This document shows, piece by piece, positions 12,541-18,909 of a DNA stretch of 64,000 nt (positions within the stretch are counted from its first letter, which is position 1; the number at the start of each line of letters is the position of its first letter). Below the pieces are notes generated by a model, which saw only the letters and a program-made list of their open reading frames with translations, had not been told where the DNA came from and searched no databases. Position numbers and translations under genes: made by a program. The DNA comes from an uncultured Lacinutrix sp. (GTDB lineage Bacteria; Bacteroidota; Bacteroidia; Flavobacteriales; Flavobacteriaceae): positions 62,001-126,000 of the forward strand of contig CAKZMU010000031.1 of the NCBI GenBank assembly GCA_937129145.1, given 5' to 3'.

Positions 12541-13860
12541 ATGAAGAAAATAGTATTACTGCTACTGTTAATCAGTCAAATGGCATTCACACAAAACACT
12601 AATTACAATCAGTTAAATACCCTTTTAGATTTACTCTATCAAAATGATAAGATTATGGGAAGTATGACTGTATTAAAAGATGGTCAAACCGTTTTCGAAA
12701 AATCTGTTGGGTATCAATACTTAAATGAAAACGAAAAAAAATTAGCATCATCAAAAACAAAGTATAGAATAGGTTCAATTACCAAAACATTTACAGCTGT
12801 AATGATTTTTCAATTAATTGATGAAGGGAAATTAGAGCTAAATGATAAGCTTTCAAAATACTTTCCAGAAGTAGTAAATGCTAAAAAAATTGAGATTGCT
12901 CATTTATTAAACCATAGTAGCGGATTGTTCAACATAACAGCAGATGAAAATTTTAACGAGCAAGAGCCAACAACACAAAAGGAAATGCTATCTATGATAG
13001 CTAAGCATGATGTGATTTTTCAACCAGGAGAGCGACATGAATACAGTAATACTAATTTCGTCCTGTTGGGTTATATTCTTGAAAGAATTGTTAACAAATC
13101 TTATGGAGAAATTTTAGAAGAGCGCATTGCTAAACCAATAGGTCTAAATAATACTTACTATGGTAGTGAAATTGATATAACTAATAACGAAAGCTTTTCG
13201 TATTATTATGAAGATGATAATTCCTTGCATGAAGCTAAACAAGCACATTTAAGTAATCCAGGAGGAGCTGGTGGTATTGTTTCAAATCCATCAGATTTGG
13301 TTGTTTTTATGAATGCTTTGTTCAATAATAAACTCATGTCTGAAAACAGTTTTACAATCATGACTACGATAGAAGATGAGTATGGTAGCGGGATTTTAAG
13401 CGCTAAAAAATCTGGATTAACTTTATTTACGCACAACGGAAGGATTGATTTTTTTCAATCTATGTTAGTCTATATCCCTGAGTTAAAAACTGCCATAGCA
13501 CTAACAGCAAATGCCTTAAATTATGGTATGATGCCAATTATATTTAATGCTATAAACGTATCTAGAGGTGAAGATATTAAAATGCCAAGTTTTACAAGTA
13601 TAGACTTGACCCCTTCAGAATTAAAAAAATATGTAGGGATTTATGAATGTGAGGGTTTACCTTTTAATTTAATTTTTAAAACAGATGGTAAAGTATTAAA
13701 AGGCGCACCAGAGGGAAGTGATTTAAAAGCCTTAAAAGCAACCAAAAAAGATGAGTTTGTTTTAGATTTAGGTGTTACTTTAAACTTTGATTTAAACACA
13801 AAATCATTGTTATTTAGTCAATCTGGAGACACGCCAAAAAAGTGTACCAAAAAAGAGTAA
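12541..13860 (+). CDS. Serine hydrolase of the beta-lactamase/PBP (class C) superfamily
   Basis: 439-residue exported protein with signal peptide MKKIVLLLLLISQMAFTQ. The catalytic SxxK motif is S79-ITK82 in YRIGSITKTFTAV, and the Y-x-N motif is Y168-S-N170. The third motif is HNGRIDFF, a HxG-type variant of KTG found in many class C-like esterases and peptidases. A C-terminal beta domain (YVGIYECEGLPF) resembles the lipocalin-like tail of such hydrolases. Likely a periplasmic peptidase or esterase rather than an antibiotic-resistance enzyme, though sequence alone does not decide. Confidence 0.85.
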   Translation: MKKIVLLLLLISQMAFTQNTNYNQLNTLLDLLYQNDKIMGSMTVLKDGQTVFEKSVGYQYLNENEKKLASSKTKYRIGSITKTFTAVMIFQLIDEGKLELNDKLSKYFPEVVNAKKIEIAHLLNHSSGLFNITADENFNEQEPTTQKEMLSMIAKHDVIFQPGERHEYSNTNFVLLGYILERIVNKSYGEILEERIAKPIGLNNTYYGSEIDITNNESFSYYYEDDNSLHEAKQAHLSNPGGAGGIVSNPSDLVVFMNALFNNKLMSENSFTIMTTIEDEYGSGILSAKKSGLTLFTHNGRIDFFQSMLVYIPELKTAIALTANALNYGMMPIIFNAINVSRGEDIKMPSFTSIDLTPSELKKYVGIYECEGLPFNLIFKTDGKVLKGAPEGSDLKALKATKKDEFVLDLGVTLNFDLNTKSLLFSQSGDTPKKCTKKE

Positions 13861-16452: not shown

Positions 16453-17712
16453 TTAAAAAATTTCTTTGAGAACTGTATTTTTAGTCTTTTCATTTATAAT
16501 TGATATTTTATCAATTTCAATTACACCATAAAAACGATACCTAATACCAACCAAACGTCCCATTGTATCATTATAATAGTTTGAATAAACTTCATTATTA
16601 TTAATATATACTTTAAGTTGTTTATCAATTACTTTAAGTTGAATATCTTTTTTGGAAGAAAAATCCACACCAAGAGAAGAAAGATCGTTTTCTTTGCCAT
16701 TTAGGAAAACATCATTTAAAAATAAATTTATATCTGAAACGCATCCAGGGATTGAAAAAGGAATAATCATTGCTCCTTTTGTACCTAAAATCACAATTTT
16801 TGTTGTTTGACAAACTGCCCATTTATCATTGTAAGCATTTTTTATTGTAGTGGTTAGAGAAAAATTATCACCAGAAATATCTCCAAAGTCTTTAACGTAA
16901 TGAAATGACGATTGTATTGGGGTGTCACTGTTTGTAATCAATTTAATTGCCTCTTTTGGCATTGCCATTTTATTTGATATTACCTCTTCTTGTTGATAAT
17001 ATTTTGGAATGGGTTCATAGTCAATAGTACCTAACCAGCCATTTGATTTAACAAATAAATCATGCTCGCTAATTGTTTTGCCATTTACTAAAAGCGTAGC
17101 GTTAAAATAACCTGGAAAGTAATATATCCCTGTTGCTTGTTTCTGATTTTGTTTGAGTTTAATAGTTTTTGTTACATCCCAAAATTGTTGGATATAAATA
17201 CTATTAGAATTTATATTTTCAATGTTTAAATCAAATATGACGGAGCTTGGCAAGCTTTCACCAATAGATTTACTTTTAAAATTAACGTTAGCAAAATCAT
17301 TTTTAACAGAATTTGTTTCTCTACTTGTCAAGGAGAAAAATGAAATAAAAATCAAAGTTAGTATTGCAGCAGAAGTAACAATAACTCTCAAATTGGAGTT
17401 TATTCTATATCGTATTTTTTCAAATTTATTGTTATTGTTTTTATTTTTAAAATCTCTCCAATTAATATATCCTGCAAAGTTGGCCAGTGTATTAAGTGTA
17501 CTTATACTTGGAGCACTATTATAGTTTACCTTACCCCAAACTCGTTTTAAAGTAGTGACACTTAAGAGCACATTTGTTTTTTCATGAATAGTCTCGCTTA
17601 ATTCAGAGAACACGTCATTATGCCAGTTTGCAGAGTTTCCCCAATCAAGACATTCTTCAATTTCTCTTAAACACTTGATTACTAACTTATATTCTGAATA
17701 TGTGTTTTGCAT
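16453..17712 (-). CDS. Membrane-tethered putative regulator with extracytoplasmic domain
   Basis: 419 residues, family not recognised by name. Residues 1-90 form a helical cytoplasmic domain with LLSVTTLKRVWGKVNYNSAP and LNTLANFAGYINWRDFK. By memory this pattern recurs at the N-terminus of many flavobacterial proteins and looks like a winged or helix-turn-helix DNA-binding fold. A single transmembrane helix lies at about 108-128. The remainder is extracytoplasmic and beta-rich, ending with IRYRFYGVIEIDKISI, which suggests a concanavalin-like sandwich. It is divergent from a secreted lectin-like gene 115 bp away. A one-protein transmembrane sensor/regulator is the most economical reading (inference). 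Confidence 0.55.
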   Translation of the reverse strand: MQNTYSEYKLVIKCLREIEECLDWGNSANWHNDVFSELSETIHEKTNVLLSVTTLKRVWGKVNYNSAPSISTLNTLANFAGYINWRDFKNKNNNNKFEKIRYRINSNLRVIVTSAAILTLIFISFFSLTSRETNSVKNDFANVNFKSKSIGESLPSSVIFDLNIENINSNSIYIQQFWDVTKTIKLKQNQKQATGIYYFPGYFNATLLVNGKTISEHDLFVKSNGWLGTIDYEPIPKYYQQEEVISNKMAMPKEAIKLITNSDTPIQSSFHYVKDFGDISGDNFSLTTTIKNAYNDKWAVCQTTKIVILGTKGAMIIPFSIPGCVSDINLFLNDVFLNGKENDLSSLGVDFSSKKDIQLKVIDKQLKVYINNNEVYSNYYNDTMGRLVGIRYRFYGVIEIDKISIINEKTKNTVLKEIF

Positions 17713-17826
17713 ATTTTACAAAAGTGTTTAAAAAATGTGACCTGCACAACATTGAATCACTTTGAACAGGTTTGTTTGTGTTAGAATATAATAATATTTG
17801 AATATTGATAAAAAAATCAATTCATC

Positions 17827-18909
17827 ATGAAAAAATTAATCATTACAACTTTTCTATTAGTAGCTATAATTACTATTTCTAAATCTCAAGAAGTTATCCC
17901 ATTGGATACATTAAATTGGAATATGAATGCTAAGTCTTATGTTCTAGAAAACTATAAAGGAAATAATGCTATTTACATTCAACAAGGATATGCCACATTA
18001 AGAGGGGTCAAATTTTTGAATGGGACTATCGAGTTTGATGTGTATTTAACAGACAGGCAAAGCTTTCCAGGTGTTGCATTTAGGGCGCATGGAAATCAAT
18101 CAGAATCATTTTATTTAAGGCCTCATTTATCTGGGAAACCAGATGCAAATCAAGTCGCTCCTACAGTAAATGGAATATCACCATGGCAATTATATTTTGG
18201 GCCTAGTTACTCATTTGCTTATGATTATAATTTTAATGGTTGGACGCATATTAAGATTGTTATAAATAATGATAAAGGCCAAGTTTTTCTAGACCATTCA
18301 AAAAAACCTCACTTGTCGTGGAATTTAAAGAACCCAGTCAAGGAAGGTGAAATAATGATTGGTGGTTCTTTTGCACCAGTTCATTATGCCAATTTTAGCA
18401 TAGATAAAACCAAGACCGAGCTTGTTGACTTTAATCCAATTGAGCGACAACCAATTGCTAATGTAATACCAACTTGGGTAGTGTCTAATAAATTTGAAGA
18501 AACCGAATTAGACAATCCTGCAAATATTCCATCAATTATTAAATCAAGGAAATGGCTTGGAAACATTAGTGTTGAGGAAGGCACAGCGGCAAATATTTCT
18601 AGAAAAGTGCTTTTGCGTGATGGTAAAAAGGGAAATACAGTCTTTGCAAAAACAATTATTAATTCTGATAAAAGTGTGCTAAAACTGCTTAACTTTGGTT
18701 ATAGTGATAGAGTAGTAGTAATACTCAATGGAAAGCCAATTTATAGAGGAACTAATAAATGGCGAACAAGAGATTATCGCTATTTAGGAACAGTAGGTTT
18801 GTTTGATGCGGTTTATTTACCTTTAAAGAAAGGAAAAAACACTCTTTTAATGGCAGTTTCAGAAGATTTTGGAGGATGGCTTGTTACGGGAAAATTTGCT
18901 GATTACTAA
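17827..18909 (+). CDS. Secreted LamG/concanavalin-like two-domain protein
   Basis: 360 residues with signal peptide (MKKLIITTFLLVAIITISKS). Residues ~25-200 look like a concanavalin A/LamG-type jelly roll: LNGTIEFDVYLTDRQSFPGV, then FNGWTHIKIVINNDKGQVFL, as in DUF1080-like carbohydrate-binding folds. The C-terminal ~110 residues (LLNFGYSDRVVVILNGKPIY to KGKNTLLMAVSEDFGGW) resemble a galactose-binding domain. No catalytic motif is seen. Divergently oriented from the membrane-tethered putative regulator, which may control it or respond to the same ligand (inference). Confidence 0.65.
   Translation: MKKLIITTFLLVAIITISKSQEVIPLDTLNWNMNAKSYVLENYKGNNAIYIQQGYATLRGVKFLNGTIEFDVYLTDRQSFPGVAFRAHGNQSESFYLRPHLSGKPDANQVAPTVNGISPWQLYFGPSYSFAYDYNFNGWTHIKIVINNDKGQVFLDHSKKPHLSWNLKNPVKEGEIMIGGSFAPVHYANFSIDKTKTELVDFNPIERQPIANVIPTWVVSNKFEETELDNPANIPSIIKSRKWLGNISVEEGTAANISRKVLLRDGKKGNTVFAKTIINSDKSVLKLLNFGYSDRVVVILNGKPIYRGTNKWRTRDYRYLGTVGLFDAVYLPLKKGKNTLLMAVSEDFGGWLVTGKFADY

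Follow-up and report, generated by a model that had tools for sequence, protein, structure and literature searches.

Transmembrane regulators of the ToxR/CadC/TcpP type were surveyed in 2023 with Pfam DNA-binding models, and the part of that survey drawn on here describes the action of membrane-fixed regulators as poorly understood (PMC10269533). A second kind is represented by SusR, whose DNA-binding domain lies at the C-terminus and which is associated with direct repeats with a long spacer, according to the cited section of its description (PMC3878776).

Here we analyse a divergent gene pair, SENS and LEC, in a window of 64,000 nucleotides (the whole stretch of DNA studied) from an uncultured Lacinutrix sp. 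Like the ToxR/CadC/TcpP type, SENS is predicted to join a cytoplasmic N-terminal DNA-binding-like domain to one membrane helix and a periplasmic sensor; membrane-based regulation is known for that type and would apply to SENS by inference. As far as the cited section describes them, the SusR-like regulators of Bacteroides share with SENS the membrane location, a periplasmic sugar sensor and a cytoplasmic DNA-binding domain (predicted in SENS), together with direct-repeat operators (a candidate in SENS) and a host in the Bacteroidota. A description of the SENS family was sought in the open-licence literature, and none appeared by title or abstract start among the matches listed. Our analysis suggests that SENS probably senses sugars outside the cell through a lectin domain and grips evenly spaced DNA repeats inside it.

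Results

SENS and LEC form a conserved divergent pair

The two genes are arranged as follows.

16453-17712, minus strand: SENS, 419 aa, predicted transmembrane one-component regulator (open reading frame, AlphaFold2 model, conservation)
17827-18909, plus strand: LEC, 360 aa, exported two-domain protein (open reading frame, Pfam)

The list of open reading frames places the two divergent genes, a 419-residue protein opposite a second gene, as the initial annotation of this DNA had described them. The distance of 115 bp given there is corrected to 114 bp, the length of the intergenic region (17713-17826) that separates the start codons.

Matches to SENS at E 1e-3 or better were found in 36 of 249 genomes of the family, and a full-length relative with at least 50% identity in 17 of the 249, the window's own genome included; this sample contained one further genome from the window's genus, which gave no SENS match at E 1e-3. 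The organisms behind the 22 named loci include Aquimarina, Flagellimonas, Psychroserpens and Winogradskyella, and several are uncultured. Across the phylum, the profile of the N-terminal domain (N-domain) at E 1e-4 was found in 14 of 198 genomes. All five N-domain carriers of one family outside the window's class (f22) possess the whole sensor, with a divergent LEC in four of the five.

With duplicates removed, LEC is divergent from the sensor in 32/32 close relatives and in 17/26 distant relatives, the other 9/26 being without a divergent LEC. Repeated sensors with identical first 80 residues were dropped from this count and from the charge count below, and sensors scoring worse than 1e-60, for example the pieces at locus L086, were left out of the pairing count. 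The gap between sensor and LEC in close relatives has a median of 117.5 bp, measured between start codons that we chose. Three of the genes scored as LEC, at L072, L076 and L085, have the first domain only (208-225 aa). Other sensors have a different divergent partner: a DUF5107-TPR protein at L089 (Pfam) and likewise, by sequence, at L090 and L091, an alpha/beta hydrolase at L074 (Pfam) and a GIFT-domain protein at L093. At L088 a GH115 gene lies downstream of the sensor on the same strand. SENS and LEC are a conserved module at otherwise changing chromosomal places.

The DUF5107 and TPR partners at L089-L091 are 1,103-1,118 residues long (Pfam on L089 only). At L082 and L086 the sensor gene is split or broken, as two open reading frames in the former and in pieces with one internal TAA in the latter, and a LEC relative still adjoins it.

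Predicted architecture of SENS

The AlphaFold2 model of SENS, built with 23 sequences, had a mean pLDDT of 78 and a pTM of 0.58. The following parts were delimited.

17434-17691, minus strand: five-helix HTH-like domain, residues 8-93, cytoplasmic by prediction (AlphaFold2, Foldseek, VIA)
17329-17388, minus strand: single transmembrane helix, about residues 109-128 (model, K/R bias)
17023-17283, minus strand: first periplasmic beta domain, residues 144-230 (strands from the model)
16459-16914, minus strand: galectin/L-type-lectin-like (ConA fold) periplasmic domain, residues 267-418 (Foldseek, VIA)

The helical N-terminal domain, single transmembrane helix and beta-rich outside domain of the initial annotation are thus all present in the predicted structure. 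The helices of the N-domain were modelled at residues 8-22, 32-46, 52-58, 70-79 and 85-93, and the domain folded alone (pLDDT 88.4, pTM 0.78) likewise displayed five helices and no wing strands. Foldseek returned 12 weak matches for it, headed by the TP901-1 CI repressor (E 0.51, probability 0.72) and including lambda repressor and PrgX. Upon VIA re-ranking of 72 chains, the best 30 of the 72 rows (Z 5.8 to 4.2) comprised 26 whose titles name XRE-type regulators, phage repressors or antitoxins, including EspR, DdrO, HipB, SinR, C.AhdI, PrgX and lambda repressor, as well as two MPnS rows and two complexes counted by title only (9iaq_D and 7pwj_CCC). The next row dropped from Z 4.2 to Z 2.9, and all Z values for the N-domain were below 8, for which the tool gives a warning about common arrangements. 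A DNA-binding fold had been anticipated for this region, and residues 1-95 were indeed modelled as a bundle of helices that, among solved structures, comes closest mainly to XRE-type DNA-binding domains. This fold resemblance, of modest Z, suggests that the N-domain is XRE/lambda-repressor-like, with residues 52-58 and their T-L-K-R motif as the putative recognition helix.

Sequence searches with SENS or its N-domain against Pfam, NCBIfam and PDB sequences gave no reliable match. Similarly, 15 diverse N-domains matched no convincing Pfam family (best HepT-like_2, E 0.0022, in 2 of the 15), and Trans_reg_C was absent from the nine families reported for them at E up to 10. Caspase-4 rows obtained with the N-domain sequence at E 0.25 were taken as chance.

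In further genomes of the phylum the N-domain is also part of shorter proteins, and at L061-L063 it starts long open frames of 823-876 aa, with STAND/NACHT-like Pfam matches in L061 and L062 that are weak and below cut-off. The latter three loci hint that the domain belongs to a wider regulatory family for which Pfam has no model. Open frames of 312-393 aa at L064-L066 matched the N-domain profile in its later part only; by eye these have a membrane helix and an outside part, and are perhaps another class of membrane regulator. The presence of the same domain at the start of weakly STAND/NACHT-like proteins and in shorter ones, as well as the modest structural Z, would also suit an HTH-shaped protein-protein adaptor, in which case SENS and LEC would merely be co-inherited. 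We regard such a role as very unlikely, as it leaves the phased array adjoining the sensor, described below, unexplained.

In the model, a long helix (residues 97-129) contains the membrane span, and beta structure is found from residue 144 on. When K and R were counted over 20 residues on either side of the most hydrophobic stretch, 54 of 58 distinct full-length sensors had more before than after it, two had equal numbers and two had fewer before; a count over 67 rows, in which some genes were present twice, gave 62 with more, three equal and two with fewer. Because the K/R excess precedes the membrane helix in 54/58 sensors, residues 1-95 most likely lie in the cytoplasm, and by charge SENS most likely has its N-terminus in and its C-terminus out. 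A DNA-binding role as annotated depends on an N-domain within the cytoplasm, and it is on the inner side that the charge bias puts it.

Outside the membrane, residues 144-230 may be Ig/PKD-like, judging from a motif and the modelled strands. Residues 223-410 group with galectins and L-type lectins in Foldseek and VIA (best Z 11.7, rmsd 2.7, 130 aligned), and a distant homologue matches PF06439 at E 4e-05, below cut-off. Furthermore, C301 and C324 are invariant across the 23 sequences, consistent with a periplasmic disulfide.

LEC is an exported protein with a ConA-like first domain

LEC carries a signal peptide, recognised by eye as MKKLIITTFLLVAIITISKSQ, and no lipobox was seen by eye. Pfam assigned the following domain.

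LEC residues about 61-192: first domain, 3-keto-disaccharide-hydrolase/ConA-like (Pfam PF06439)

Of 18 LEC family members, 17 matched PF06439 with their first domain at E 0.1 or better (best E 2.3e-10). The LEC homologue of L021 scored 27.5 bits; the window's LEC, at 15.5 bits, is under the curated cut-off of 26.8, and LEC differs from the PF06439 family in carrying an extra C-terminal domain. The description of LEC as a secreted two-domain sugar-binding-like protein therefore holds for the signal peptide and the ConA-like first domain, whereas the C-terminal domain has no assignment. When LEC and the profiles of LEC and the ectodomain were searched against PDB sequences, no hit surpassed E 0.046. 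Close homology between the sensor ectodomain and LEC was not supported, the profile comparison giving only 25% probability (E 7.8e-4).

The pairing in 32/32 close relatives and the ConA-like lectin domain in both proteins are what one would expect if SENS and LEC formed a periplasmic co-receptor complex, like ToxR/ToxS or VtrA/VtrC. LEC would then be a sugar-binding subunit or an inhibitor of SENS, and divergent transcription would balance their amounts. The ectodomain and LEC profiles agree weakly, however, and the DUF5107-TPR partners of L089-L091 and the alpha/beta hydrolase of L074 show that distant sensors do not require LEC as a partner. We consider a complex of this kind possible but doubtful; it is compatible with a role of SENS as a regulator.

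A phased repeat array lies between the genes

The intergenic region contains an operator-like array.

17741-17777, plus strand: four direct repeats, CTGCACAACA / TTGAATCACT / TTGAACAGGT / TTGTTT (sequence, alignment, statistics)

In the window the units are exactly 10 bp apart, starting at 17742, 17752, 17762 and 17772. The consensus of 25 non-redundant close intergenics reads aCAAAa.Tc.t.AAAa, then a.tTG.ACAAcATTGAAt..atTTG.Ac.AAcTTGTtT, with capitals for 85% or more. Among 24 aligned relatives, a majority base of at least 90% was present in 20/37 columns of the array, 8/28 on the sensor side and 3/49 on the LEC side. L040, which has a misplaced start, was excluded from these column statistics, and L040 and L083 from the block listing.

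Periodicity was tested as the self-similarity of six-base words by lag, against 300 shuffles. Intergenics of at most 40 bp or at least 200 bp, according to our start choices, were left out (L041, L053, L057, L070, L075, L077, L088, L092 and L105), and removal of near-identical sequences reduced the close set from 33 to 25 and the distant set from 25 to 22. The 25 close intergenics scored 161 at lag 10 against 30.4 expected (z 14.0) and peaked also at lag 20, values reached by none of the 300 shuffles. The 22 distant intergenics scored 117 at lag 11 against 28.1 expected (z 11.0), and 78 at lag 10 against 29.4 (z 5.2). Control intergenics free of sensor sites gave z 0.1 at lag 10 and -0.7 at lag 11 for 31 divergent regions, and z 1.0 at both lags for 152 regions of all kinds (the 31 included), their top peak being at lag 21 (z 2.3-2.4); an 85-sequence control that contained the sensor sites (lag 10, z 14.2) was set aside. 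Taken singly, 9/25 close and 11/22 distant sequences (20/47 together) had p <0.05, and the window's own intergenic had p 0.096.

Lag 10 was seen in sensor subfamilies I (25 sequences, z 14.3) and II (7, z 10.3), and lag 11 in subfamilies III (8, z 7.4), IV (4, z 6.4) and V (3, z 3.6). The subfamilies were first named by eye from a display that also showed the repeats. Clustering of the proteins only, into five groups, merged I and II and partly mixed III and IV, the remaining groups being V and L079 alone; at four word settings, I and II together had lag 10, the three groups from III-V had lag 11, and for L079 the lag was undecided. The period difference between subfamily II and III-V had p 4.5e-4, uncorrected for kinship. 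Since close relatives are not independent, the z and p values are overstated, and the agreement of divergent groups is a stronger point than the z and p of close relatives. The repeat period, 10 or 11 bp, follows the sensor subfamily.

At L089-L091, where LEC is replaced, an 11-bp repeat array of the ACTTTGTACAG ACTTTGCACAG type lies between the genes, and by eye TTGAAC-type repeats precede the sensor start at L075 and L077, which are without LEC. Inspection of L070 and L088 by eye revealed no clear array upstream of the sensor. Since some sensors that lack LEC also have repeats next to them, the repeats are probably the sensor's own.

Candidate promoters and uniqueness of the site

Three candidate promoter elements were located in the intergenic region.

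17719-17726, minus strand: candidate -7 box of SENS, CACTTTTG, called without shuffle control
17747-17749, minus strand: candidate TTG of the SENS promoter, 20 bp upstream of the -7 box, within the array
17772-17774, plus strand: candidate -33 TTG of LEC, within the last repeat

The -7 candidate of SENS resembles the flavobacterial promoter box TAnnTTTG as given in the cited part of PMC9723704. On the sensor strand, TTG followed after 19-21 bp by nAnnTTTG was present in 20/25 close relatives, again without shuffle control. The call of a LEC promoter is weak: the -7 box was better than shuffles at 0.05 in 1/23 sequences, and in many relatives the best match lies 25-26 bp from the TTG, farther than usual.

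In the window's own genome a strict operator pattern gave no match, and a relaxed one, with up to three mismatches, gave a single match, the known site. Across the 249 family genomes a strict pattern matched 12 times in 11 genomes, with ten matches at the sensor-LEC intergenic and two elsewhere, the latter equal in number to the two matches of a reversed control pattern. It caught the site in 10 of the 17 family genomes with a close sensor and missed it in 7, so that a regulon of more divergent sites could have escaped it. No regulon beyond the SENS-LEC pair was found by these pattern searches of the own and the 249 family genomes.

Neighbouring genes

Neighbour clustering revealed no conserved third gene at a fixed place across genera. 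A LytTR response regulator family was present in 15/36 and a histidine kinase family in 14/36 close loci, a set that includes duplicates of the same place and five near-identical Aquimarina; these genes lie on one side of the sensor or the other, at a distance of 1 to 10 genes. Their family identity was determined by Pfam for 2 of 20 LytTR members and one histidine kinase member. We judged their presence near the sensors to reflect family size, not linkage.

At the close loci L034, L035, L037-L039, L051, L097 and L098 the sensor has a LytTR response regulator and histidine kinase pair 1-3 genes away, on one side or the other (Pfam run on L034 and L098 only); elsewhere the pair is farther away or was not seen. 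At 12541-13860 the window encodes a serine beta-lactamase-family protein (PF00144); relatives occur at varying distance in nine sampled sensor loci, the window's included, possibly by chance.

Alternatively, the protein that binds the array could be a different, cytoplasmic one such as a LytTR response regulator, or the array could be a promoter feature, with another target for SENS. It does overlap the candidate promoter boxes, contact between SENS and the array is deduced from sequence, and LytTR family members were found within ten genes of the sensor in 19/62 sampled loci. Nevertheless, the period tracks the sensor subfamily and is missing from control intergenics, the repeats stand beside sensors without LEC, the own genome holds no second site within three mismatches, and the LytTR genes are at variable distance on either side. 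Taken together, we consider binding by another factor unlikely.

Discussion

A proposed local regulator of its own gene and LEC

We are fairly confident that SENS is a local transmembrane one-component regulator of its own gene and of LEC. The idea of a one-component sensor and its target, already put forward in the initial annotation, is supported by the conserved divergent pairing, the phased array and a period that follows the sensor subfamily; that annotation was right in substance, and the array and the breadth of the module are what the present analysis adds.

In the proposed mechanism, the periplasmic lectin-like domain of SENS would sense a glycan or a glycan-bound state, and the membrane-held XRE-like N-domain would bind the repeats at 17741-17777. 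The periodicity suggests that SENS subunits may line up along the same face of the double helix, with one subunit for each turn, and the switch could be occupancy of the array or clustering of SENS in the membrane. Because the array covers the -33 candidates of back-to-back promoters, the two genes are most likely under the joint control of SENS. As regards sign, we moderately favour activation of LEC, since the last repeat overlaps the candidate -33 TTG and the best -7 match is, in many relatives, unusually far from it, although this ground is weak. LEC is exported and is proposed to bind or cut sugar, and the pair would therefore be a local sugar-response cassette.

Comparison with described regulators

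The DNA-binding domain of the ToxR/CadC family is a winged helix of the OmpR/PhoB type (Trans_reg_C). SENS differs from the ToxR/CadC/TcpP type in its predicted all-helical, XRE-like domain, which is not a winged helix, and in its lectin-like ectodomain. Given that SENS has no convincing Pfam DNA-binding match and that the survey, in the part cited, is Pfam-based, the survey should have missed this family (PMC10269533). In contrast to SusR, SENS has its DNA-binding-like domain at the N-terminus and tandem 10/11-bp repeats, and its C-terminus is lectin-like and predicted outside. By analogy, SENS resembles the hybrid two-component systems (HTCS) in that a periplasmic sensor is tied to genes of exported sugar-related proteins; however, a Pfam scan of SENS detected no kinase, receiver or AraC domain, unlike HTCS. 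The scan likewise gave no FecR match (FecR-type anti-sigma).

The architecture and topology of a transmembrane one-component regulator fit SENS by prediction, and DNA binding is suggested by fold resemblance and by the repeats. In the preferred explanation SENS would work like ToxR/CadC or SusR, and by the features tested it is outside both families. On balance we lean slightly towards a joint reading in which SENS represents a third kind of membrane-anchored sugar regulator in Bacteroidota, beside the SusR-like regulators and HTCS. It would combine a domain family that Pfam does not model, an XRE-like grip on DNA at the N-terminus, a sensor resembling galectins and helix-phased repeats whose period of 10 or 11 bp is set by the subfamily, for instance through how long the loop following the recognition helix is. 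If so, membrane-held subunits along one DNA face would make readout of an array by membrane-bound protein a principle of regulation. The SENS-LEC cassette offers a compact model, with two genes, one array found once in the genome and natural 10- and 11-bp variants. It also suggests that Pfam-based surveys under-count such regulators in flavobacteria, and it would provide a way into glycan sensing that involves neither SusR nor HTCS.
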